Notes: a model not told the origin generated them from the sequence alone. A stretch of DNA of 64,000 nucleotides from Polyangiaceae bacterium (GCA_025937835.1 JAICQO010000008.1:1-64000), one strand, 5' to 3'. Shown: positions 3,278 to 14,229, numbered from the stretch's first letter. Translations and numbers: made by a program.

Positions 3278-5527
3278 ATGAGCATCGTCGACGACCTGCG
3301 GGAGATCGCCGAGCGCGTGCAGCGCGAGTTCGAGCAGGGCAGGAGGCTCCTCAGCTTTCAGGAGTACCTCGAGCTGTTCGGGAGCGATCCGCTCCGGCAC
3401 TCGCGCGACGCGGCCTGGTATCTGCGAGACGCCTTCGATCACTACGGGCGCGAGACGGTCGAGCGCCCCTGGGGAAAGCTGACGCGGTTCCGCCTCTTCG
3501 ATCTGCCGTTCCTCGAACAGCACGAGTCGCGGCGCGAGGCCTTGATCGGTCAGGAAGCCGTCCAGGGCGAGATCTACCGCGCGCTCAGCAACTTCGTGCG
3601 CGAGGGGCGGCCCAACCGCGTGGTGCTGCTCCACGGCCCGAACGGCTCTGCAAAGAGCACGGTCGCCGCCTGCATCATGCGCGCGCTCGAGCACTATTCG
3701 ATGCAGGACGAGGGCTCGCTCTACCGCTTTCACTGGGTATTCCCCAACGAAAAGACGGTGCGCGGCGCGATCGGCTTCGGCGGCAAGCGCTCGAGCCCGG
3801 TGCTCTCGCGCGAGGAGAGCTTCGCGCATTTGCCCGAAGAGGACATCGACGCGCGGCTGTTCATGGAAGTCCGGGATCATCCGCTGTTCTTGCTGCCACG
3901 CACCGAGCGCAAGCGGCTGCTCGAGCGCATGTACGCGGACGCGGGCTCGAAGGAGCCGCCGCCTTCCTGGGTGCTGCGCGGTGAGCTGTCCCACAAGAGC
4001 CGTCAGGTATTCGAGTCCCTGCTCAGCACCTACGACGGTTCGCTCGAGCAGGTGCTGCGGCACGTACAGGTCGAGCGCTACTTCATTTCGCGGCGCTACC
4101 GCGTGGGCGCGGTCTCGCTCGGGCCGCAGCTGTCGGTAGACGCCGGCGAACGTCAGATCACCGCCGACCGCAGCCTCGGCGCGTTGCCTTCGGCGTTGCA
4201 GGCGGTGACGCTGTTCGAGGCCTTCGGGGAGCTGGTGGATGCCGCCGGCGGCCTGCTCGAGTTCTCGGACATCTTGAAGCGCCCGCTCGACGCCTTCAAA
4301 TACCTGCAGATCACCGCCGAGACCGGCGAGGTGGCGCTCCGCTCCCAGAGCCTCCACGTGAACTGTGTGATGCTCGCGAGCGGCAACGAGGCGCACCTCT
4401 CGGCGTTCCACGAGCACCCGGAGTTCGAGAGCTTTCGCGGCCGGCTCGAGCTGGTGCGCGCCCCCTACTTGCTCAGCTGGCTCGACGAGCAGGCGATCTA
4501 CGACGCGCAGATCGCGCCGCAGGTGCGCACCCACGTCGCGCCGCACGCCACGCAAATGGCGGCCATGTTCGCGGTCTTGACGCGCATGCGGCGACCGGTG
4601 AGCGAGCGCTACGAGGGCAACCTGCGGGAGCTCGTGGGCGAGCTCACCGCGGTCGAGAAGATGGACCTGTACGCGACGGGGACGCCCCCGCTCCGCCTCG
4701 AAGACGACTCGCGGAAGCTGCTGAGGTCGGCGATCGAGGCGCTGTACCGCGAGAGCGAGTCCTATCCGATTTACGAAGGGAGCGTCGGCGCGAGCCCGCG
4801 CGAGATGCGGACCGTATTGCTCGACGCCGCTCAGAATCCGCGGTTTTCGTGCCTTTCCCCGCTGGCGGTGCTGGAAGAGCTCGACGCGCTCTGCGAACGC
4901 CCGCAGGAGTACGCGTTCCTGCAGGAGGAGAAGCTGCCGGGCGGCTACCACGATCACGCGCTGTTCCGGCGCGCGATCCGCGATCGCTTGCTAGACTCGT
5001 TCGAAGACGAGTTCCGGATCGCGAGCGGCCTGGTGGACGAGTCCCGCTACAACGACCTGTTCGATCGCTACGTCACGCACGTCAGCTTCTGGGTGAAGGG
5101 CGAGAAGATCCGCAACGCCGTGACGGGCCAGTACGAAGATCCCGACGAGCGCATGATGCGCGAGGTCGAGACGCTGCTCGGCAACAGCGAAGAGCCGGCC
5201 GATTTCCGGCACTCCCTGATCGGCACGATCGCCGCCTGGGCCATCGATCACCCAGGCCGCCCGATCGACCACACTCAGGTGTTCGCCGGTCACCTGCGGC
5301 GCTTGCGCGAGGCCGCGTTCGCCGAGCGCCGCACGCTCGTCGCCAAGCTGTGCCGGGACGTCGTGATCTTGCTGCGCGAGGAGGGCGCCGGCCTGAACGA
5401 AGCGCGCCGCACGGCCGCCGATCGAGCCGCCAACGAGCTCTATCAGCGCTTCGGCTACGAGAGCAGCTCTGCCGGCGACGCCGCCGCGGCGCTGATCCGC
5501 GAACGCTTTCACCAGCTGCTCACGTGA
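3278..5527 (+). CDS. prkA: PrkA-family AAA+ serine protein kinase-like protein
   Basis: A protein of 749 aa. The N-terminal half matches the PrkA AAA domain: FQEYLELF and the region around YLRDAFDHYG near the start, then a modified Walker A, GPNGSAKST (about 120-128), typical of PrkA. The C-terminal half resembles the PrkA C-terminal domain. E. coli YeaG, the best-known homologue, has about 644 aa, so this one is longer. The usual partners YeaH and SpoVR/YcgB are not in the window. Its stop overlaps the start of an amino-acid permease (GTGA at 5524-5527), implying translational coupling and a link to amino-acid uptake. Whether PrkA proteins act as kinases or as proteases is debated. Confidence 0.88.
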   Translation: MSIVDDLREIAERVQREFEQGRRLLSFQEYLELFGSDPLRHSRDAAWYLRDAFDHYGRETVERPWGKLTRFRLFDLPFLEQHESRREALIGQEAVQGEIYRALSNFVREGRPNRVVLLHGPNGSAKSTVAACIMRALEHYSMQDEGSLYRFHWVFPNEKTVRGAIGFGGKRSSPVLSREESFAHLPEEDIDARLFMEVRDHPLFLLPRTERKRLLERMYADAGSKEPPPSWVLRGELSHKSRQVFESLLSTYDGSLEQVLRHVQVERYFISRRYRVGAVSLGPQLSVDAGERQITADRSLGALPSALQAVTLFEAFGELVDAAGGLLEFSDILKRPLDAFKYLQITAETGEVALRSQSLHVNCVMLASGNEAHLSAFHEHPEFESFRGRLELVRAPYLLSWLDEQAIYDAQIAPQVRTHVAPHATQMAAMFAVLTRMRRPVSERYEGNLRELVGELTAVEKMDLYATGTPPLRLEDDSRKLLRSAIEALYRESESYPIYEGSVGASPREMRTVLLDAAQNPRFSCLSPLAVLEELDALCERPQEYAFLQEEKLPGGYHDHALFRRAIRDRLLDSFEDEFRIASGLVDESRYNDLFDRYVTHVSFWVKGEKIRNAVTGQYEDPDERMMREVETLLGNSEEPADFRHSLIGTIAAWAIDHPGRPIDHTQVFAGHLRRLREAAFAERRTLVAKLCRDVVILLREEGAGLNEARRTAADRAANELYQRFGYESSSAGDAAAALIRERFHQLLT

Positions 5528-6804
5528 CCGCGCCCGCGCCCACCGACGCACGGCCGAACACGGTGGGGCTCGGGTCCTTGTTCGCCCTGGGCGTGAACGG
5601 CATCGTCGGGGTCGGCATCTTTTTCACGCCGGGGGCAGTGGCCGCCCTGGTTCCGGGCCCGGCGGGCGCGCTCGCGTACCCCCTGACGGCGCTCCTGCTC
5701 GCCCCCGTCGCGCTCACGGCGGCCTTCCTGGGGCGCGCGTTGCCCGTCGACGGCGGGCCTTACGTTTGGGCGCGCAGCGCCTTCGGCGCGAAGGCCGGCT
5801 GGATCGTGGGCTGGGTAGCCGGAGTTGCGGCGTTGATCAGCACCGCGGCCGTGTTTGCGGGGGTGGCCTCCCAGCTCGCAGCGGGTTTCCCGTTGCCCGG
5901 CGGGCGAGCGGGCTGGGTCGTGCTCTGCGCCGTCGCGCTCTCGGCGGTCGCGTTCGCCGGCCTGCGCCCGAGCGCCTGGGTCTGGAACGCGCTCACGATC
6001 GTCAAGCTCGTGCCGCTGGGCTTGCTGCTCGTGCTCGGACTCGCCGTCACAAGCGTGGCGCTCGAGCGGCCGACGGCGGGGGATTCCGTGGCGCCCGCCT
6101 GGGGCAGAGCGCTGCTCGTCGCGCTGTTCCCCCTGCAGGGGTTCGAGGTCGTGCCGGTTCTCTCCGGAAGGGTCCGCGGCGGGCGCCACACGCTGACCAT
6201 CGCCACCTTCGGCGCGCTGTGTTTCGCCGCCGCGTTGTACGCGGCGATTCAGCTCACTTGTGTCCGCGCGCTGCCCGCCCTCGGCGGCGCATCGGCGCCG
6301 CTCGGGGAGGCGGCGGCCGTGCTCGGCGGCTCCGGGTCGAGCTGGGTCGCACGCGTCGTATCCGTCGGCGCCAGCGTATCGGCGCTCGGCATCGCCTTCG
6401 GCATGGTCGTGATGACCCCGCGCTACATCGCCGCTCTTGGTGAACAGCGCAACGCCCTCGGCTTCTTGGGCCAGGTGAACCCACGCGGGGTTCCGAGCGC
6501 AGCGCTGCTCGCCACGTTGCTCGCCGTGGTCTTGCTCGGCTCGCTCGAGAGCCTCGAATCCTTGTTCGTGCTGTCGAGCTCGGCGGTGCTCATCCAGTAC
6601 GTCGCGGCGTCGGCGTCGCTGATCTGGCTTTCGCTCCGGCGCGCGCACGGCCTCACCCCGAGCTACGTCGCACCCGCGCTCTTGGCGCTCGGTGCGGTCG
6701 GCCTGCTGGCGTCTTCGATCGAGTTCCGGGAGCTGCTCGTGCTCGGAGCGTTCCTCGCGGTCGGAGCTTTCGTGCTGCTGGCCTCGCCGGGACGAGAGCG
6801 CTAG
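5524..6804 (+). CDS. APC-superfamily amino acid permease
   Basis: A protein of 426 aa, almost entirely hydrophobic, with about 12 predicted membrane segments. The N terminus GLGSLFALGVNGIVGVGIFF is the first helix of amino acid-polyamine-organocation permeases with the unwound GVGIFF motif that binds substrate. The GTG start at 5524 overlaps the prkA stop, so the two are translated together. TatD follows 11 bases after the stop. The substrate cannot be told from sequence. Confidence 0.88.
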   Translation: MTAPAPTDARPNTVGLGSLFALGVNGIVGVGIFFTPGAVAALVPGPAGALAYPLTALLLAPVALTAAFLGRALPVDGGPYVWARSAFGAKAGWIVGWVAGVAALISTAAVFAGVASQLAAGFPLPGGRAGWVVLCAVALSAVAFAGLRPSAWVWNALTIVKLVPLGLLLVLGLAVTSVALERPTAGDSVAPAWGRALLVALFPLQGFEVVPVLSGRVRGGRHTLTIATFGALCFAAALYAAIQLTCVRALPALGGASAPLGEAAAVLGGSGSSWVARVVSVGASVSALGIAFGMVVMTPRYIAALGEQRNALGFLGQVNPRGVPSAALLATLLAVVLLGSLESLESLFVLSSSAVLIQYVAASASLIWLSLRRAHGLTPSYVAPALLALGAVGLLASSIEFRELLVLGAFLAVGAFVLLASPGRER

Positions 6805-7707: not shown

Positions 7708-7784
7708 GCCAAAGTAGCTCAGCTGGTTAGAGCACGCGCTTCATAAGCGTGGGGTCGTCGGTTCAAGTCCGACCTTTGGCACCA
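7708..7784 (+). tRNA. tRNA-Met(CAT), elongator; attachment site of the integrative element
   Basis: The acceptor GCCAAAG (7708-7714) pairs perfectly with CTTTGGC. The anticodon stem CGCGC/GCGTG holds the loop TTCATAA (anticodon CAT), and the T arm is GTCGG-TTCAAGT-CCGAC. Discriminator A and an encoded CCA (7782-7784) complete it. The general pattern (TAGCTCAGCTGGTTAGAGC) fits elongator tRNA-Met. The 3' part from the anticodon stem onward is repeated at 14168, so this copy is the intact gene kept at the left junction of the inserted element. Confidence 0.93.
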
Positions 7785-7798
7785 GCAACCAGGCTCGA
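7737..7798 (+). repeat. attL: left copy of the 62-bp attachment-site repeat
   Basis: Identical to 14168-14229 except at 7783 (C here, G at 14214). The first 46 bases match perfectly, from inside the anticodon stem to the tRNA end; 15 more bases match after the mismatch. Identity starts in the anticodon stem, which suggests strand exchange in the anticodon stem-loop. Confidence 0.9.
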
Positions 7799-8266
7799 TT
7801 CGCGATCGGGCCTCCCGAGCGGAGTGGTTGCGGGTACCGATGCGGGTACCTCAATCACGGCGGCCTCGGACGCTGCTTCAAGGCCGGGCACCTTGCGGGT
7901 ACCTGATGCCAGTGCCCGCCGCCGAGCCGCGCTGGCGGCGCGATCCGCGCGTCTTGGTTCGAGCTCGGCGCTCGGCTCGACGGCCTTCGCTCGCGTGCGC
8001 TGGCGGGGCAGGGAGGGGCTGCCGACGGCGCTCCCCAGCGCCCGCCCCTGCCTCGCTTGCACGCCTTCCAAGCGCTCGGTGAGCTGTCCGAACGCCTCCC
8101 GCATGCCGCGCTCCAGCGACGCCTCCCGTGAGCGCTCGAGCGCCTCGACGAAGCTCACGAGCACGGCGACGTAGTCTTTCGCGAGACGCGGATCGAGCGC
8201 CCGCAGGCGCTTCTCGAACCGTCGCGTCTTCGCGAAGAACGGAGCCCACGGATCGGCGCGTCTCAC
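7763..8266 (-). CDS. element protein of unknown function, last gene of the seven-gene operon
   Basis: A protein of 167 aa; no family recognised. The N-terminal half is helical and charged (RRFEKRLRALDPRLAKDY, then a Glu/Arg-rich stretch). The second half is Ala/Arg-rich and looks disordered. Its GTG start overlaps the previous gene's stop by four bases (GTGA, 8263-8266). The reading frame runs through the TGCGGGTACC repeats and into the attachment site, stopping at 7763-7765 inside the tRNA T arm on the opposite strand. The last dozen residues are thus antisense-tRNA sequence, and the real C terminus may be shaped by integration. Confidence 0.55.
   Translation of the reverse strand: MRRADPWAPFFAKTRRFEKRLRALDPRLAKDYVAVLVSFVEALERSREASLERGMREAFGQLTERLEGVQARQGRALGSAVGSPSLPRQRTRAKAVEPSAELEPRRADRAASAARRRALASGTRKVPGLEAASEAAVIEVPASVPATTPLGRPDRESSLVAGAKGRT
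7829..7903 (+). promoter_or_regulatory. three TGCGGGTACC repeats, candidate integrase arm-type sites (left)
   Basis: The 10-mer TGCGGGTACC occurs at 7829-7838, 7841-7850 and 7894-7903. Two more copies lie at 14029-14038 and 14041-14050 by the other end, with the same 12-base step between the paired copies. Clustering near both ends of the element suggests arm-type binding sites for the integrase or for an excisionase. These copies also lie inside the 3' part of the last gene of the leftward operon. Confidence 0.6.
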
Positions 8267-8550
8267 CCGATCTCGCTTCTGAGGTCCGCCACCTCGCCGG
8301 CAATCAACGCCACCATGACGGCCGTGTGGGCCCTCAGGACTATGGCGAACTCCCTGGCGAGCTCGGGATCGCGGTCCAGAAGCTTGGCGCGGAACGCGAG
8401 AGCGAGGTCCCGTGCCCGGGCGGCGAGCGCTTCGGCGTCCACCTCGGGCGCTTCGGTGTTCGGCGCCCGGGCGGCCTTCCGCGGTGCCGCCTTGCTCGCG
8501 CTCTTACCCTTCCGGGTGGCGGCGGCGCGCTTGCTAGCCACCTTTGCCAC
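8263..8550 (-). CDS. small basic element protein, unknown function
   Basis: About 95 aa. The first 35 residues are rich in Lys, Arg and Ala, suggesting nucleic-acid binding by a disordered tail. The rest is helical with a hydrophobic segment (AIVLRAHTAVMVALIAGEV). Start chosen at GTG 8550; GTG 8541 is an equally good alternative that would overlap the previous stop by 8 bases. The next gene starts within its stop codon. No known family was recognised; gene status rests on tight packing and coding-like composition. Confidence 0.55.
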   Translation of the reverse strand: MAKVASKRAAATRKGKSASKAAPRKAARAPNTEAPEVDAEALAARARDLALAFRAKLLDRDPELAREFAIVLRAHTAVMVALIAGEVADLRSEIG

Positions 8551-8818
8551 CCGGCAGCGACACCAACACGGGATCCATGCGCGACTCCTTCGTGGTCGTG
8601 TCGAACTGAAATCGCCAGAGCGCACCGCAGTCCTGGCAGCGGTACAAGCGCTCCCCGTGCGCGCCTGGGGCGGTTATCTCCCCGTACTTGTTGCTCCAAG
8701 TCACGTCGCTGCGCTTCGTCTTGGTGACTTGCTTCAGACCTCGGAGCAACTTCCCTTCCGCGTCCAACGGTGGCACGCCCTTGTCGGCGTCGGGACTGCA
8801 CAGCTTACACGGAATCAT
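8534..8818 (-). CDS. small zinc-ribbon-like element protein
   Basis: A protein of 94 aa. CKLC near the N terminus (residues 4-7) and CQDC in the second half could form a four-cysteine zinc site. Between them lies a hydrophilic stretch. The ATG at 8818 overlaps the preceding gene's TGA as ATGA, which fixes the start. It is the fifth gene of the leftward operon. Many small zinc-ribbon proteins in phages and plasmids are regulators or nuclease accessories, but nothing here identifies a target. Confidence 0.6.
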   Translation of the reverse strand: MIPCKLCSPDADKGVPPLDAEGKLLRGLKQVTKTKRSDVTWSNKYGEITAPGAHGERLYRCQDCGALWRFQFDTTTKESRMDPVLVSLPGGKGG

Positions 8819-9180
8819 CGTCGTAGCTCCCTTCGGCTTCGGAAGGCCTCGAGCTTGACCACCGGCGGCGCTTCCCGCGTGACCTCGGACGCGCGCGGCT
8901 GCCGGAAGCACGGGTGACCGACGCACGCCGGCGCCTCCGTCTCCACCGGCCTCCACGTCCGAGCGAACGTCTCGCGCATGGCGGTCAATTCGGTGATGGC
9001 GTCGCGCAGGTAGCGGGCCCGCGTGGGCAGCCCTTTCAGCTGCCCCTCGGCGTACTGCAAGCCCTCGGCGATCAGCTCCTCGGCAAGCCGCAGCTCGGCC
9101 TCCGAGGAGCTCTCGTCGATCGTCGAGACCGCTCGGCGCGCGTCCACGATCGGGCCGCTTTTGGGGTTGCGGTTAGCCAC
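8815..9180 (-). CDS. element protein of unknown function (helical)
   Basis: About 121 aa if GTG 9180 is used, which overlaps the preceding stop by 8 bases. Residues about 15-75 are strongly helical (EAELRLAEELIAEGLQYAEG and following). A C-terminal stretch contains CVGHPCF, two cysteines three residues apart. No family was recognised. It is the fourth gene of the leftward operon, and its stop overlaps the start of the zinc-ribbon gene. Confidence 0.55.
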   Translation of the reverse strand: MANRNPKSGPIVDARRAVSTIDESSSEAELRLAEELIAEGLQYAEGQLKGLPTRARYLRDAITELTAMRETFARTWRPVETEAPACVGHPCFRQPRASEVTREAPPVVKLEAFRSRRELRR

Positions 9181-9439
9181 GGCCCGCCTCCCGTTCCGCT
9201 GCCCTGGCGGCTCGCGGGGCGAGCTCGGTGAAGGGCTCGTAGGCGACCCCATTGAGATCCGCCAGCTCCCAGAGAGCGCCGTCCAGCTGGGCGAGTTCGT
9301 CGTGAAGGCTTTGACCGGTGCGGCGCGCGAACCCGATCAGCCGCTCGAAGTCGGCGCGAGAGATCGTCACGGTCGTGGTGGGCTTCGAACGCGCACCGCT
9401 GGGAGGCGTCCGGGCCTGCTCCTTCGACGCGCGCTTCAC
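9173..9439 (-). CDS. small element protein with ribbon-helix-helix-like segment
   Basis: An 88-aa protein starting at GTG 9439, which forms GTGA with the upstream stop at 9436. A basic Lys/Arg-rich N terminus is followed by TTTVTISRADFERLIGFARRTGQSLHDELAQL. A short strand followed by helices resembles ribbon-helix-helix regulators or small helical DNA-binding proteins; this is a tentative reading. Third gene of the operon. Confidence 0.55.
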   Translation of the reverse strand: MKRASKEQARTPPSGARSKPTTTVTISRADFERLIGFARRTGQSLHDELAQLDGALWELADLNGVAYEPFTELAPRAARAAEREAGRG

Positions 9440-9705
9440 GACGCCCTCTTTTCGAGCACGGTTGCCTCGAACGTCGAGCCTCGCTCGCACCAGGCGCGAT
9501 AGGCAGCGACCGCGATGGCTTTGAGCTGGACGGTCGCGGCCCTCCGCAGCACTGCATCGTAGCCGCACCCCGAGCGTGCGCCGCCATCCTCGTCGGGCGT
9601 GTCGTCGGTGTGCAGGCCCCAGGTGAGGAGCTCGCGGAGCTGCTCGTGCTGCCGTTCACGACGCCACCGCGCTTCCCTCGGCCTGCTCGTTCTGCCGCAC
9701 GACAT
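9436..9705 (-). CDS. small element protein, unknown function
   Basis: Up to 89 aa from ATG 9705; the true start may lie further in, because the first 50 bases overlap the upstream gene. The body is helical: LLTWGLHTDDTPDEDG and then AVLRRAATVQLKAIAVAAYR. No known family was recognised. Its stop overlaps the start of the next gene by GTGA, which supports it being translated. Confidence 0.5.
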   Translation of the reverse strand: MSCGRTSRPREARWRRERQHEQLRELLTWGLHTDDTPDEDGGARSGCGYDAVLRRAATVQLKAIAVAAYRAWCERGSTFEATVLEKRAS

Positions 9706-9901
9706 CGATCAGCCGCGGCCCGTTCTCCACCAGCGCGAGCGTGGACGCGACCATCACGGCCGCCGTGCGCTGGAAGTCGATCCGGTCGAAGTCGAGCGGG
9801 ATGAGGTCCCACGCCGGATTGTCCGCGCCCACCGCGAGGAACACACATTCGGCACATGGAGGGGATGGCCCGCTGAACCGTCGCGTGCGGCCGATTGACA
9901 C
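9656..9901 (-). CDS. small element protein, first gene of the leftward operon
   Basis: Up to 81 aa from GTG 9901; the start is uncertain. CAEC occurs near residue 16, and the second half is helical (IDFQRTAAVMVASTLALVEN). No family recognised. It faces the rightward membrane-protein gene starting at 9934 (or 9895), so the promoter for the seven-gene operon should lie in the few dozen bases around 9901-9934. Confidence 0.45.
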   Translation of the reverse strand: MSIGRTRRFSGPSPPCAECVFLAVGADNPAWDLIPLDFDRIDFQRTAAVMVASTLALVENGPRLIDVVRQNEQAEGSAVAS

Positions 9902-9933
9902 CTACACGCCGCGCGCTGCTAGCCTGGCTGACA

Positions 9934-10206
9934 GTGGCTCCGAAGACGACCCTCGAGAAAGCGAGGCTGTGGGCGCTCCGAGCTGGCCTGCTGGGCGTGA
10001 TCGGCTTCGGTCTCGGTGCCCTCCTGGGGTTCGTGATGGCCCTTTCCGAATCCACGCTTGAGGGCCGGGCGAGTGTGTTTTTCTTCATCGCATGCTTCGC
10101 GGGCGTGACGCTGGCTTCGGTGCCTCTCGCGATCGCCGCTTGGTTCGTCTTGCTTCGAATGATCGAGCAGGTCGCGGACGCTGCGAAAGGTTCGCGTAGA
10201 GACTGA
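9934..10206 (+). CDS. small membrane protein of the element
   Basis: A 90-aa protein from GTG 9934; a TTG at 9895 would give 103 aa but would collide with the divergent gene. Two clear membrane helices: LLGVIGFGLGALLGFVMAL and FFFIACFAGVTLASVPLAIA, separated by a short polar loop. A basic N terminus (APKTTLEKARLWALR) suggests both ends face the cytoplasm. No family recognised. Confidence 0.55.
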   Translation: MAPKTTLEKARLWALRAGLLGVIGFGLGALLGFVMALSESTLEGRASVFFFIACFAGVTLASVPLAIAAWFVLLRMIEQVADAAKGSRRD

Positions 10207-10562
10207 GCCGCGCGTCCGCGATCTCGAGCTTGCGGAGCACCTTGGCTACGAGCGGGCGCGCGCAATCCGCGATCTGATCCACCGCCTCGTCAAAGACGGA
10301 AAGCTGAGGATTCCGATATTTGCCGCGCGGTGCGGCAAAACCGATGGGGCAGGCGCTCAACATCACCACTCGTGATGTAGAGGGAAAGCTCAACACTTTC
10401 GAGGTTATCACCACGGCGGGGAAAACCTCCGCCGTCGGCGGCCGCGCCGGAACCGAGTACTGGCTCACGGAGGCCCAAGCCCTCAAAGTCGTCGCAAAGT
10501 CCGAGACCGCCCGCGCCGAGTTTCGGCTTCGCGCCGCGCCCTTCGCAGCTGGCTCTCCGTGA
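10205..10562 (+). pseudogene. broken phage-type regulatory protein (antirepressor-like)
   Basis: From 10205 one frame reads VRDLELAEHLGYERARAIRD and onwards to LVKDGKL, the N-terminal helix-turn-helix typical of phage regulatory/antirepressor-like proteins. It runs to a stop near 10373 without the rest. A second frame (open from 10320) carries the expected continuation, including EYWLTEAQALKVVAKSETAR, another hallmark of these proteins, and ends at 10562. The two halves need a frameshift somewhere in 10310-10330, and the usual C-terminal domain is missing. I read it as a decayed gene. A sequencing error cannot be excluded, but the missing C-terminal part argues for real decay. Confidence 0.6.
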
Positions 10563-10898
10563 ACGCCGTGCTCCGGCTACTCCACGGGCCGAGCGGAATG
10601 ACGGTCGAGCCGCGAAGCTCGATCAGCCGCTCGAGCCCGGCTTCTTCGTCGAGTTCGTGATGGTGGCCGCGAACGCGCGCGCGCTGCGCCCTGTGGGCTT
10701 CGGGGGATCGCTGCGCTCGGACCCGAACGGCTATACGTATGGTCATCCCGAGCGACCCTACGCCAAGTCACGCGCGCGGGCGGCCTGTGGCGTTCGCGCG
10801 GGCTGCCGTCTACACGGCGCGCCCTCAAACGTGTTCGAAAAACCGGAACCGCACCCGGGCTTGCCGCCGCCGTCCCCACACACGTAACCCGAGAGGTC
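10563..10898. other. no convincing gene (336 bp inside the element)
   Basis: Both strands are open for short distances only, and the translations are Arg/Ala-rich without motifs. I see no repeat, tRNA or terminator. It may be residue of the decayed regulator gene to its left plus the promoter of the DUF4236-type gene starting at 10899. Confidence 0.5.
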
Positions 10899-11476
10899 GT
10901 GGGCTTCTCGTTCCGCAAGTCGTTCAAGCTCGGACCGGTACGCCTGAACGTGTCCAGAGCGGCGTGGCCGCGTCGGTGGGCGCGTCGGTGGGCGTGCGCG
11001 GGGCTCGCGTCGGGGTCTCGGCGAAAGGGCGCGCCTATGGCCACGTGGGCGCCGGTGGCGTGGGCTATCGGTTCAGCTCCGGCGGCGGCAAGGGACGGGG
11101 GCGAGCAGCGGGCCCGGCAAGCATCGAGCAGTGGCAGGGAGTCGGCAGCGCCGACCCGTCGCCTACCTGGTTCGTGTCGTGCCGAGGCGAAACGATCGGA
11201 CCGATGAGCGACGCCACGATCCGCGAGTGGGCAGCCCTCGGCGCGATCAACCCCGGGACCTACCTCCAGAGCTCCGCGGGCGGGCCGTGGGTGCCGTTCG
11301 AGCAAATGGGCTTTTCGCCGAGCACGTCACACACGGTGCTGGGAATCATCCTCGGCGCCGTTGGCGTCGCCGGATTCGTCGTGGCCGTGTTGGTGCTGTT
11401 CAGCTCGTGCGGCCAGGGCAGGGGCGGCGTGGCCTCTACTCGGGCGGGCTGGCCGGCGGTTGCGTCACGCGGCTGA
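10899..11476 (+). pseudogene. DUF4236 - GYF_2 - membrane protein, interrupted by a one-base deletion
   Basis: GTG 10899 has a good ribosome site (GAGAGG). The first frame gives GFSFRKSFKLGPVRLNVS, the conserved start of DUF4236 proteins, and then goes astray. The expected continuation SGVAASVGASVGVRGARVGV is in another frame and follows at once if one A is restored at about 10956 (GTGTCC-AGAGC instead of GTGTCC-AAGAGC). The rest contains a GYF_2-like domain (WFVSCRGETIGPMSD ... PGTYLQSSAGGPWVPFEQ) and one membrane helix (VLGIILGAVGVAGFVVAVLVL). GYF_2 domains mediate protein-protein contacts. Either a true pseudogene or a sequencing indel. Confidence 0.7.
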
Positions 11477-11522
11477 GAAAATCGGAAGTGCTGAACAGAC
11501 TGGCACCTCGGCAGCAGGTCAA

Positions 11523-11852
11523 ATGGACAAGCTAAACGACGCTATCCGCCGTCAAGACTTCGTGTGGAGGGCTCGAGAGGCCGTGAACAAGGGGTGGGTC
11601 ATCGCGCTGACGGCGCTCGCCGTGGGCTCGTTGGATCTAGCCGGTACCCTCGCGAAGTGCGAGGCGCTGAACATTGCTTCGACTGTCCTGACCATGCTGG
11701 CACCAGGGGTCTATCTGCTCGCGAGCATTGCCCTTCCGGTTCTCTTCGATCACACCGGCAGCCTGATCCCGAATCGCCGGCGACCGTCCAGCACCCCGGC
11801 TAGCGTTCGGCGCACGCCACGGCCCGCAGCGCCGCCTGGTAGCTCTCCGTGA
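11523..11852 (+). CDS. small membrane protein of the element
   Basis: A 109-aa protein if ATG 11523 is used. Two hydrophobic segments (WVIALTALAVGSLDLAG and a longer one ending in LLASIALPVLF) follow a charged start (DKLNDAIRRQDFVWRAREAVNK). The tail is Pro/Arg-rich. The ribosome site is weak, and the frame is open further upstream inside the GYF_2 gene. No family recognised. It lies 46 bases after the DUF4236-type gene on the same strand and may form a pair with it. Confidence 0.5.
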   Translation: MDKLNDAIRRQDFVWRAREAVNKGWVIALTALAVGSLDLAGTLAKCEALNIASTVLTMLAPGVYLLASIALPVLFDHTGSLIPNRRRPSSTPASVRRTPRPAAPPGSSP

Positions 11853-11916
11853 GCCGCCGGAAGGCTCGGCGCTGCCGCCCCGGTCCGGGTGCCGCTCGAG
11901 CGCGGGCGTCTCTCGT

Positions 11917-12330
11917 TCAACCCGCCTTTTTCAGCTCCACGCCGGTCGGCGGCGGCATCAGCTTCTCTCGCACGAGACCGAGCACGGCGAGCGGAACCCA
12001 AGGCTCCATTTGACGTTCTTCTCGCTCCCAACGCGAGACGCTTTCGAAGGTCGTTCCGATGCGCTCGGCGAGCTCGGCTTGCGTCATGTCGAGAGTCTTG
12101 CGCGCAAAGCGCAGCATGGCGCCCGTGACGCGGGGTGCTTCGGTGAACGCGACGAGCGTGGCGCGGAGCTCCACTTTCTCGAGCGTCTCGGCCGACACGG
12201 TGAACTCACCGCACTTGGCACAAACCGGACGAACCACGGAGCGATCGATCACGGTGTGTTCGCCGACGCGGGTGGTGAGCTCGACGTTGCGCCGCTCGAA
12301 CTTGTCGCCGTTGCATTCGTGGCAGTGCAT
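11917..12330 (-). CDS. MqsA-like antitoxin: YgiT-type zinc finger plus XRE helix-turn-helix
   Basis: A 137-aa protein. CHEC (residues 3-6) and CAKC (about 37-40) form the N-terminal zinc site of MqsA/YgiT proteins. The C-terminal domain is a helix-turn-helix (LDMTQAELAERIGTTFESVS) with the WE-R-E end typical of that family. In MqsRA-type systems this protein binds the toxin through the zinc domain and represses its own operon through the helix-turn-helix. It lies 12 bases downstream of the DUF4258 gene; toxin-first order is the rule for such pairs. Confidence 0.85.
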   Translation of the reverse strand: MHCHECNGDKFERRNVELTTRVGEHTVIDRSVVRPVCAKCGEFTVSAETLEKVELRATLVAFTEAPRVTGAMLRFARKTLDMTQAELAERIGTTFESVSRWEREERQMEPWVPLAVLGLVREKLMPPPTGVELKKAG

Positions 12331-12342
12331 TCTCGTTCCCTT

Positions 12343-12603
12343 TCAGAAAACCGTGACGACCAGCCCGCGACCGGTGAACACGATCACGACGCCAAGCGGC
12401 TCGCCGTCGTCGTCTGTTCCGCCGTCGATGCGCCACTTGTTGCCGCCCTCGTGAGCGGCACTCGTGGCGGACGAAAGAGCAAGGCCGATGTCGCGACGGG
12501 TCACGTTCCGTTGTTTCATGCGCTGTAGGGCGTGGGAGCTCAGCTCGAACTGGCGATAGCGCCCGGCGCGAGCTGCCTCCCGGAGCGCTTCGGCGCTGGT
12601 CAC
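12343..12603 (-). CDS. DUF4258-family putative toxin
   Basis: An 86-aa protein. The N-terminal FELSSHALQRMKQRNVTRRD is the signature of DUF4258 (HA-x-x-RM-x-x-R), and the C-terminal part has the strands VVIVFTGRGLVVTVF. DUF4258 proteins are often encoded beside YgiT/MqsA antitoxins and resemble small RelE/MqsR-fold RNases, so mRNA cleavage is the likely activity; this is inferred from family and neighbour. Its ATG overlaps the integrase stop (ATGA, 12600-12603), which ties its translation to that of the integrase. Confidence 0.8.
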   Translation of the reverse strand: MTSAEALREAARAGRYRQFELSSHALQRMKQRNVTRRDIGLALSSATSAAHEGGNKWRIDGGTDDDGEPLGVVIVFTGRGLVVTVF

Positions 12604-13991
12604 TTGGTACCCGACACCTTGAGGCTTGCTTGACGTGACGTCAAGTTCAGCCCAGGCCCACGCCGAGAGATTCCATCGATTACTGCGCGAATTTGCTCCT
12701 CAATCTGCATCGCGGCCTCGAGCGTCTTCGCCTCCACCGGGATGCCGCGAGCGAGCCCGAGGTAGTGCCGCTCCGCGACCGTCACGGAGTGCCCGAGCTG
12801 GACGGCGGAGCGATAGGCGGACGCGGCACCGAAGAGGCTCGGAGCGTTCGTCAGGTACGTTCCGCACGTGCGCCGCAGCGCCTGCCAGTTGCAGCCCGCG
12901 GGCGCGCCGTACTCCGATCGGAGACGACGCTCGGCGGCTTTTGCTTCGTCGCGAGTGAAACCGAAGACCAGGCCCTTGCCGCCGCTCTTCAGGTGCATGG
13001 TGGCGAGCAGCTTGCGGAGCGCGGGCGAGACCTCGAGCGCGACTGTTCGCGCGCGCTTCGTGCGGCTGCGCGCGGGGATGTAGATCTCGCCGACGGCGGC
13101 GCCGGCGTGATCGACCGCCTCGAGGTCGACGTGCTTCCACTCGAGATCGCACATCTCGCGGAAGCGCATGCCCGACAGAACGGCGAGAGCGACGAACGGC
13201 GCGATCGGCGTGTATCGCGGCGTCGTTCCGATCGGGCGCTTGCCGGCGAGCTCCTCGCGGGTGGCCTCGAACGTCTCGGCGTCGTGTCGCAGGGCGGCCT
13301 CGAGCAGGCGCTGCAGCTCGGCTGGCTTGCGGTAGGTGAGGCGCTCGGCGCTGACGGGGAGCTTCTTCAGGCCGTCGCGGAGGTCGTCCGACGAGAGGCG
13401 AGGGAGCAGGCCGAGGGAACGGAGGTAGCCCAAGACGGTGCCGATCGCGCGGAGCTCGACGTTCACGGTGTTGGGCGCGCGGGCCTCGAGCGTGAACCTC
13501 GCCGCGCCGCGCTTGCCGCTCTCGACGGGGACGCGGCGCTTCTCCTTCACGAGCTCGGCGCGGAAGGCGACGACGCGAGCACCCGTGAGCTCGTCGGCGG
13601 ACCGCACGCCGGCCCGCGTCGCCCAGGTCTCGAGCTTCCTGGTTGCGCCCCGGTAGATTTCGACGGTGCGGGAACGAAGCCGAGCGTGATCCTCGAAGTA
13701 GCGTTTGAGCGCGTCGGCGAGCGACGTGCCGGTCTCGCGGGCCGCGCCCGCTTCGAGCTCGAGCCGGCGCTTGGCTATCGCTCGCGCCTTCCGGATCGCC
13801 CAATCGCGTCGCGCCTCCGAGGTCGGGCAGGCCAGCGGGTCGAGCGTGATCTTGACCGTGCGTCCGGAGTCGGGGTCGGAGTAGCGCGCGCGCCAGTGCG
13901 GGTGCCGGCCGGTCGGGTCCGGGCGCAGCAACACCACGCCCGGGTGCGGGCTGCGGGTTCGGCGTTTTCGGTTCGGGCTCGTCGTCGTCAT
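12600..13991 (-). CDS. int: tyrosine recombinase (integrase)
   Basis: About 463 aa from ATG 13991; an in-frame upstream start at 14006 adds five residues but falls on a core-like site. The N-terminal region has an arm-binding-like domain (PHWRARYSDPDSGRTVKITL), followed by a SAM-like core-binding domain (about 100-210). In the catalytic domain I see Arg in SGMRFREMCDLEW, a Lys in RSRTKRARTVAL, the box III Arg in ALRRTCGTYL (the usual His of HxxR is not at its place), then His in LGHSVTVAERHYLG and the nucleophile Tyr in the same motif. It should catalyse integration at tRNA-Met. The gene lies 177 bases from the attR repeat, and candidate arm sites sit right upstream of its start. Confidence 0.92.
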   Translation of the reverse strand: MTTTSPNRKRRTRSPHPGVVLLRPDPTGRHPHWRARYSDPDSGRTVKITLDPLACPTSEARRDWAIRKARAIAKRRLELEAGAARETGTSLADALKRYFEDHARLRSRTVEIYRGATRKLETWATRAGVRSADELTGARVVAFRAELVKEKRRVPVESGKRGAARFTLEARAPNTVNVELRAIGTVLGYLRSLGLLPRLSSDDLRDGLKKLPVSAERLTYRKPAELQRLLEAALRHDAETFEATREELAGKRPIGTTPRYTPIAPFVALAVLSGMRFREMCDLEWKHVDLEAVDHAGAAVGEIYIPARSRTKRARTVALEVSPALRKLLATMHLKSGGKGLVFGFTRDEAKAAERRLRSEYGAPAGCNWQALRRTCGTYLTNAPSLFGAASAYRSAVQLGHSVTVAERHYLGLARGIPVEAKTLEAAMQIEEQIRAVIDGISRRGPGLNLTSRQASLKVSGTK

Positions 13992-14006
13992 GAACCAGCG
14001 GCCCAA

Positions 14007-14026
14007 CGCTCAAACAGCGTGGGGTC
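14007..14026. promoter_or_regulatory. core-type-like site upstream of the integrase start
   Basis: The sequence CGCTCAAACAGCGTGGGGTC resembles the attachment core CGCTTCATAAGCGTGGGGTC at 15 of 20 positions. It includes the same inverted arms (ACGCT/AGCGT counting the A at 14006) that make up the tRNA anticodon stem. It may be an additional core-type binding site used by the integrase to control its own gene. Confidence 0.45.
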
Positions 14027-14028
14027 CG

Positions 14029-14050
14029 TGCGGGTACCTGTGCGGGTACC
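14029..14050 (+). promoter_or_regulatory. two TGCGGGTACC repeats, candidate arm-type sites (right)
   Basis: Copies at 14029-14038 and 14041-14050 are separated by the same 12-base step as the pair at 7829/7841. They stand 38 bases before the integrase ATG, so binding here could both build the recombination complex and repress int. Confidence 0.6.
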
Positions 14051-14167
14051 TCGATCCGTCCTACAGCGTCATTCTACGACATTCAAGGGCATCGTCTGAT
14101 CGACGGGAAACCCGAAAAAACAGGGACGTTGAGCGACGCAGTGTGACGCAGTAGGAAGCGCATCGAA

Positions 14168-14229
14168 CGCTTCATAAGCGTGGGGTCGTCGGTTCAAGTC
14201 CGACCTTTGGCACGAGCAACCAGGCTCGA
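14168..14229 (+). repeat. attR: right copy of the 62-bp attachment-site repeat
   Basis: Matches 7737-7798 with one mismatch (14214). It holds the tRNA-Met 3' half only, without acceptor 5' strand or D arm, so it is not a functional tRNA gene. CCA has become CGA here. Confidence 0.9.

Follow-up and report, generated by a model that had tools for sequence, protein, structure and literature searches.

Islands of the Islander type are delimited by a tRNA gene at one end and a displaced 3′ fragment of that gene, in the same orientation, at the other, with an integrase gene between them and a total length of 2-200 kb (PMC4383910). The island described here shares these bounds, their orientation and the internal integrase with the islands whose attP is centred on the anticodon; it differs from them in being very small (6.4 kb), in its orphan cargo and in its twin pairs of arm-like repeats with a 12-bp period. 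It also resembles the KplE1 intS type (PMC2951348) in that only a short stretch with putative Int arm sites separates the start of int from one of the att sites; unlike that system, it has no recognised TorI-like directionality factor, and autoregulation is here only a possibility. Orphan genes of narrow distribution that lie in clusters, often within integrated elements, are likewise characteristic of the archaeal 'dark matter islands' (PMC4158269), although these belong to another domain of life and are likened to our locus by general character, not by shared families. Finally, DUF4258 is listed among the BECR-fold toxin families, and DUF4258-MqsA fusions have been reported (PMC11980606). 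As in the type II pairs of that survey, our island carries a DUF4258 protein gene followed by one for an MqsA-family HTH/zinc protein. However, the toxin comes first and the antitoxin second, whereas the survey table gives the A/T order for DUF4258, and the putative pair sits within the int operon, unlike the pairs described there.

An integrative island in a tRNA-Met gene

Seven small minus-strand genes, designated A to G (Table 1), account for one third of an integrative island of 6,431 bp that occupies the tRNA-Met gene of a Polyangiaceae-like chromosome. The repeated part of this gene starts at the anticodon stem; the two copies are identical over 46 bp, and weaker similarity extends past the core. 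Joining the flanks in silico at the att cores restores an intact tRNA-Met. The element is thus bounded by an intact tRNA gene and a 3′ fragment in the same orientation, and the gene of a tyrosine recombinase integrase lies within it. Five genomes of the same genus lack the island at the searched tRNA-Met region: all have the response-regulator neighbour gene and a tRNA-Met, and island DNA (7850-14100) is without a match. In two of the five (L085 and L086) the upstream gene order is kept up to TatD-tRNA-Met; the tRNA is inverted relative to the response-regulator gene in L082 and L083, and the two lie 8.6 kb apart in L084. Judged by its sequence, the carrier of A-G is a well-defined tRNA-targeting mobile island with orphan cargo. 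What had been an orphan ORF string can now be treated as a bounded, testable mobile element with defined ends, integrase, likely Int arm sites and operon direction relative to attP, and the function of the orphan operon can be approached as one unit. The tRNA, the integrase and the toxin-antitoxin pair were absent from the earlier sequence-only reading of this DNA, which treated the genes alone.

At the far end of the island, reading inward, the integrase gene is followed by the DUF4258 gene, which overlaps it by 4 nt, and then by the MqsA-family antitoxin gene, so that a toxin-family gene stands next to a matching antitoxin-family gene, as in type II systems. Among the remaining genes, one is split: Pfam places positions 1-21 of DUF4236 in one frame, and positions 21-51 plus GYF_2 in another, which hints at an assembly error or at decay by frameshift within the element. 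Relaxase and conjugation families were not found among the island ORFs scanned with Pfam, PHROGs and NCBIfam, nor were replication (primase, helicase, Rep) or excisionase families among the ORFs scanned, a weak or novel excisionase being possible. A search of the island for sigma-70-like promoters returned none and is uninformative in so GC-rich a genome.

Table 1. Features of the island and its target gene. Positions are counted along the window, the whole 64-kb stretch of DNA that was analysed.
Feature	Position	Strand	Remarks
tRNA-Met (anticodon cat)	7708..7784	+	ARAGORN, Rfam RF00005; 3′ half = left attachment site
attL core	7737..7782	.	46 bp, exact repeat of 14168-14213
Gene G	7763..8266	-	167 aa at most; pI 11.4, with a strongly basic C-terminus; reaches into att arm and tRNA at its 3′ end
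Putative arm-type pair GGTACCCGCA, left arm	7829..7850	-	12-bp period; copies at 7829 and 7841
Third GGTACCCGCA copy, left arm	7894..7903	-	exact repeat
Gene F	8263..8541	-	92 aa; basic N-terminus
F/G joint	8266-8263	-	GTGA, 4 nt
Gene E	8534..8818	-	94 aa; two CxxC motifs
E/F joint	8541-8534	-	GTGGCTAG, 8 nt
Gene D	8815..9180	-	121 aa
D/E joint	8818-8815	-	ATGA, 4 nt
Gene C	9173..9439	-	88 aa; possibly ribbon-helix-helix-like core
C/D joint	9180-9173	-	GTGGCTAA, 8 nt
Gene B	9436..9705	-	up to 89 aa; start uncertain
B/C joint	9439-9436	-	GTGA, 4 nt
Gene A	9656..9844	-	62 aa, acidic, pI 4.1; codon score
Small hydrophobic, membrane-like protein, divergent from A	9934..10206	+	start 9895 possible; no Pfam family
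Small ORF	10344..10562	+	no Pfam or PHROG family
DUF4236 + GYF_2 gene, split over two frames	10899..11476	+	Pfam
Small ORF with hydrophobic segments	11523..11852	+	ORF scan, Pfam
MqsA-family antitoxin, zinc motif and HTH	11917..12330	-	PF15731 37.1 bits (cut-off 30); TIGR03830 below cut-off
DUF4258 protein, probable RelE-like toxin	12343..12603	-	PF14076 29.8 bits (cut-off 25); PMC11980606
Tyrosine integrase, 468 aa	12600..14006	-	PHROG 1 E 3.1e-26; Pfam Phage_integrase E 9.6e-6, 1.2 bits under cut-off
Putative arm-type pair GGTACCCGCA, int-side arm	14029..14050	-	12-bp period; copies at 14029 and 14041
attR core	14168..14213	.	displaced 3′ half of tRNA-Met

The A-G gene chain

We lean towards reading A-G as a single polycistronic operon whose seven small genes are lineage-specific and would serve as accessory and regulatory cargo of the 6.43-kb tRNA-Met integrative island. 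Of this model, the sequence itself shows the 46-bp att cores, the paired repeats in both flanks, the int-DUF4258-MqsA string, the A-G chain and the lack of the island next to this tRNA in the five relatives.

The seven ORFs that the sequence-only reading had proposed are all present where it placed them; they run from 9844 down to 7763 and use two frames alternately. A codon log-odds score, trained on the long genes of the window with the island left out, was computed along the region in windows of 60 codons. On the minus strand, the frame with the best score changes in step with the genes, from -1 (A) to -0 (B), -1 (C), -0 (D), -1 (E), -0 (F) and -1 (G), with core maxima of 0.64 (A), 0.45 (C), 0.54 (D), 0.36 (E) and 0.30 (F) bits per codon. 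Of 94 wrong-frame ORFs within trusted genes, which formed the null set, 2% score as high as A, 3% as high as D, 4% as high as E and as F, and 6% as high as C. Taken singly, the ORF calls are of moderate strength, and the case for A-G being genes rests on the ordered chain and its joints, not on any single ORF.

With the best-supported starts, five of these joints are overlaps of 4 nt (GTGA or ATGA) or 8 nt (GTGGCTAR), the two 8-nt joints, GTGGCTAA between C and D and GTGGCTAG between E and F, being near-identical. It is because 4-nt and 8-nt overlaps take turns that the whole chain occupies only two frames. Purine-rich, ribosome-binding-like runs lie upstream of C, D and E; for D the better-supported start is GTG 9180, with GGGAGG 6 nt upstream. 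The better-supported start of F is GTG 8541, with 8550 also possible, and the codon score prefers GTG 9844 over 9901 for A; B has no convincing start codon. The ATGA and GTGA joints reported earlier at 9436, 8815 and 8263 were thus recovered, whereas the longer overlaps reported at 9173 and 8534 proved to be artefacts of taking the most upstream start, since the starts at 9180 and 8541 give the 8-nt joints. The longer overlap at 9656 also came from picking the most upstream start; A more probably starts at 9844, and the start of B is uncertain.

The same joints bear on whether A-G might be the debris of one longer gene, frameshifted by true decay or by assembly error. The use of just two frames, the split of the neighbouring DUF4236 gene and the draft state of the genome (227 contigs) would all fit such an origin. 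However, at five consecutive switches start codon and stop are no more than 4 or 8 nt apart, and three of the five starts have a purine-rich, ribosome-binding-like run. Random frameshifts are not expected to place starts and stops in this way, and we consider debris very improbable.

A shorter true string, in which several ORFs and above all B and G are not genes, is also unlikely, yet it deserves more weight. B and G are the weakest calls of the seven: 21% and 15%, respectively, of the wrong-frame ORFs score as high, which puts both genes inside the range of that null set. Moreover, G extends at its 3′ end across the att arm into the tRNA gene, and its coding signal weakens below about 7950; the C-terminus of G is therefore doubtful. 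On the other hand, the cores of B and G are locally in the best frame (0.28 and 0.42 bits per codon), and each takes part in a 4-nt joint with the adjacent gene. Overall, the A-G string looks like a set of real genes that are co-transcribed.

Properties and relationships of the A-G proteins

A is acidic, whereas B-G are basic, G strongly so. The sequence-only reading had singled out a protein with a CxxC...CxxC site, one with a very basic tail and one with a ribbon-helix-helix-like start. The first is E and the third C, both correct as sequence patterns; the basic-tail pattern is correct too, except that two proteins have such ends, F at the N-terminus and G at the C-terminus. In a single-sequence model of C (no alignment, pLDDT 70), a disordered basic N-terminus precedes the stretch TTTVTIS and helices 28-41 and 45-63. 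A fold search of the PDB with this model gave non-significant matches, several of them to ribbon-helix-helix proteins including Arc and CdbA, and Pfam gave no RHH match; the model weakly suggests a ribbon-helix-helix-like protein. The model of E is all-beta and of low confidence, and fold searches against PDB and viral structures returned no significant match; with its two CxxC motifs, E is a possible zinc protein.

None of the seven proteins has a significant family match in Pfam, PHROGs, NCBIfam or PADLOC, in agreement with the earlier remark that they belong to no known family. The lowest family E-value, 0.003 for F against an ATP-synthase subunit model, lies far under that model's cut-off. 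No relative was accepted for E in 146 genomes, a genome collection (by peptide pattern), phages or IMG/VR, for D in 284 genomes, phages, plasmids or IMG/VR, or for A in 284 genomes or IMG/VR; the same holds for B, C, F and G in 146 genomes, for C, F and G in phages, and for C and G in IMG/VR. The collections differed by protein and pattern-based scans detect close relatives only, so that 'orphan' is meant at this sensitivity. Homologues that are plainly phage structural genes, which the sequence-only reading had named as evidence against its proposal, did not appear in the collections searched.

Several candidate relationships were rejected. The faint matches that C and G gave in relatives (lowest E about 4e-4 and 1e-3) were judged compositional, being spread over most genomes and mostly within longer open frames. 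A match of D in G324 (E 9e-4) fell in a frame antisense to a transporter-like gene and was discarded on inspection, and matches of G to L049 and others reflect a low-complexity Arg/Ala-rich tail. Within the chain, F and G as paralogues were dismissed, this pair not being among those with shuffle p < 0.05; C and G are the sole pair below that level (p 0.04, 21 pairs), and this similarity was not taken as meaningful.

Arm sites, related islands and a possible regulatory circuit

Arm-type sites are well known for lambda-type integrases. In the window, the 10-bp sequence GGTACCCGCA occurs in five exact copies, all on one strand and all flanking the att cores, with two copies 12 bp apart in each arm. 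Allowing one mismatch raises the number of matches to seven, where 2.8 are expected, and the argument rests on the clustering of GGTACCCGCA at the cores, not on the copy number. When the window is divided into 213 bins of 300 bp, 9 bins contain some 9-mer pair of this kind, the arms counted in. Similar geometry recurs with other motifs on related elements: TGCTGGTAC pairs with a 12-bp period on the tRNA side and the int side of L022, GTAGCGGCA pairs of the same period on both sides of L026, and GTGGTAGCA pairs, again at 12 bp, on the IMG/VR contig L087; L034 has a pair on the int side only, with an unrelated motif. On L087 the two pairs enclose a tRNA-Val-like 3′ half; this makes an uninterrupted attP-like site, in which the pairs are 221 bp apart, compared with 231 bp in the attP predicted for our island. 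By analogy with lambda-type integrases, we read the GGTACCCGCA pairs as putative integrase arm-type sites.

The operon reading of A-G, combined with these sites, suggests a mechanism that goes beyond the sequence arrangement and that we infer from the layout. Int would bind the paired GGTACCCGCA arms bracketing the half-tRNA core, leading to integration and excision there. Transcription of A-G would run toward the tRNA, and no terminator-like site was found on the A-G strand in either flank. In the predicted excised circle, about 190 bp separate the stop of G from the start of int, and the core and the int-side arm pair lie between them. Transcription of A-G could then continue through attP into int-toxin-antitoxin, which would lie downstream of A-G only in the excised state, and the operon could in this way tie its own expression to addiction and re-integration. 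While the element sits in the chromosome, int would have to rely on a promoter of its own beside the putative Int arm sites, which fits autoregulation, a behaviour reported for tRNA-associated integrases (PMC2951348). Re-initiation of translation at the overlaps might yield the A-G products in coupled amounts. As for individual proteins, structural and compositional hints weakly suggest that C (ribbon-helix-helix-like), E (possibly zinc-binding) and F and G (basic tails) might serve in regulation, assist excision or modulate the host or a helper phage.

Tightly overlapping gene strings are common in compact phage-like elements, so overlap alone implies neither a complex nor fixed ratios. The earlier statement that tight coupling implies one or the other therefore goes too far; the idea is compatible with the locus and has no specific support.

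The integrase is present in 11 of 146 related genomes, that of A-G counted, and at 20 loci of the genome collection, mostly in Myxococcota MAGs and also in Planctomycetota-labelled records. Since the records of related islands carry the names of Polyangiaceae and other Myxococcota, the host of A-G probably belongs there too. Three complete islands with half-tRNA repeats were delimited, in tRNA-Val (L022, 5.6 kb, and L026, 11.8 kb) and in tRNA-Gly (L034, 7.6 kb). The islands of Polyangiaceae and Sandaracinaceae and the viral contig have in common the integrase, a half-tRNA core and mostly 12-bp-spaced arm pairs, but differ in cargo: a HicA-type toxin gene adjoins int in L022, and L031 has a ParE-like/HTH pair. 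The A-G string, which the sequence-only reading had proposed to look for in other islands, is absent from all related islands examined. A further locus, L055, where the integrase is 79% identical over a segment, was set aside as a short, broken match and has no A-G. The result suggests that there is a group of small islands, for the most part in Polyangia, that target tRNA genes and in which the integrase and attP geometry are common and cargo or toxin-antitoxin pairs are exchanged.

This exchange of cargo, together with the tight coupling of the seven genes and their lack of a known family, could be taken to mean that A-G forms a new system in its own right, serving for instance anti-phage defence or helper-phage interference, whose products assemble into one complex and for which the island is a mere vehicle. 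Against this, A-G has no recognised enzymatic or effector domain, its matches to the anti-phage defence models of PADLOC are no better than E 0.026, which falls short of a defence-family match, and it is absent as a transferable module from all other collections searched; we regard such a system as quite unlikely. Equally slim is the prospect that A-G is a single, undescribed multi-protein module, made up of a DNA-binding regulator, a zinc protein and partners with basic tails, which would control excision or put competing phages out of action, on an undescribed family of compact Polyangia tRNA islands defined by the integrase and the twin 12-bp-period arm sites. The chance that the A-G operon is a new system is modest.

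Alternatively, the island may be a phage satellite, with A-G as its early and helper-exploiting genes, comparable to the regions of small genes in satellites of the PICI or P4 type. Related integrases indeed occur in L026 with excisionase-like HTH and polymerase/primase-like proteins, in L034 with a DUF3631 protein and on the viral contig L087 with its uninterrupted attP-like site; the two L026 proteins count equally in favour of the accessory-cargo reading. However, PHROG matches of A-G are nothing better than E 0.05, the 6.4 kb hold no recognised replication, packaging or capsid gene, and scanning IMG/VR for close relatives gave nothing for A, C, D, E and G. A satellite is accordingly improbable, if a little less so than a self-contained system, and we continue to prefer an operon of accessory and regulatory cargo. 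In L034, L026 and L087, small-overlap genes read toward the tRNA or attP, the same direction as A-G.

Att regions and tRNA genes

ORF G, the last of the seven overlapping minus-strand genes, ends in a stretch that it shares with the tRNA gene and with the putative arm sites for the integrase, and therefore this DNA may be under constraint as protein, att arm and tRNA alike. An uninterrupted attP-like site lies immediately upstream of a related integrase in an IMG/VR contig (L087), where two pairs of 12-bp-spaced repeats enclose the 3' half of tRNA-Val; this contig also encodes a serine resolvase and a helicase.

Related and possibly decayed elements

Toxin-antitoxin-type pairs are located immediately downstream of related integrases in two genome-collection loci (L022 and L031) and in the window, and their types differ (HicA type, ParE-like/HTH and DUF4258-MqsA). 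On the island, the reading of the DUF4236 + GYF_2 gene is divided over two frames, owing either to element decay or to an assembly error. In a Polyangiaceae genome (L055), a broken integrase remnant near tRNA-Arg, with one 79%-identical segment, is perhaps a decayed relative of the island element.

Chromosomal surroundings

A permease-like gene is flanked by PrkA on one side and TatD on the other; it is missing from two same-genus genomes lacking the island (L085 and L086), where gene order is otherwise conserved.

Coordinates of the features discussed
Feature	Sequence	Position	Strand
Permease-like gene	window	5524-6804	+
ORF G end/putative arm sites/tRNA	window	7763-7950	-
DUF4236 + GYF_2 gene	window	10899-11476	+
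Toxin-antitoxin-type pair	window	11917-12603	
Integrase remnant	L055	10001-11626	
attP-like site	L087	9702-9943
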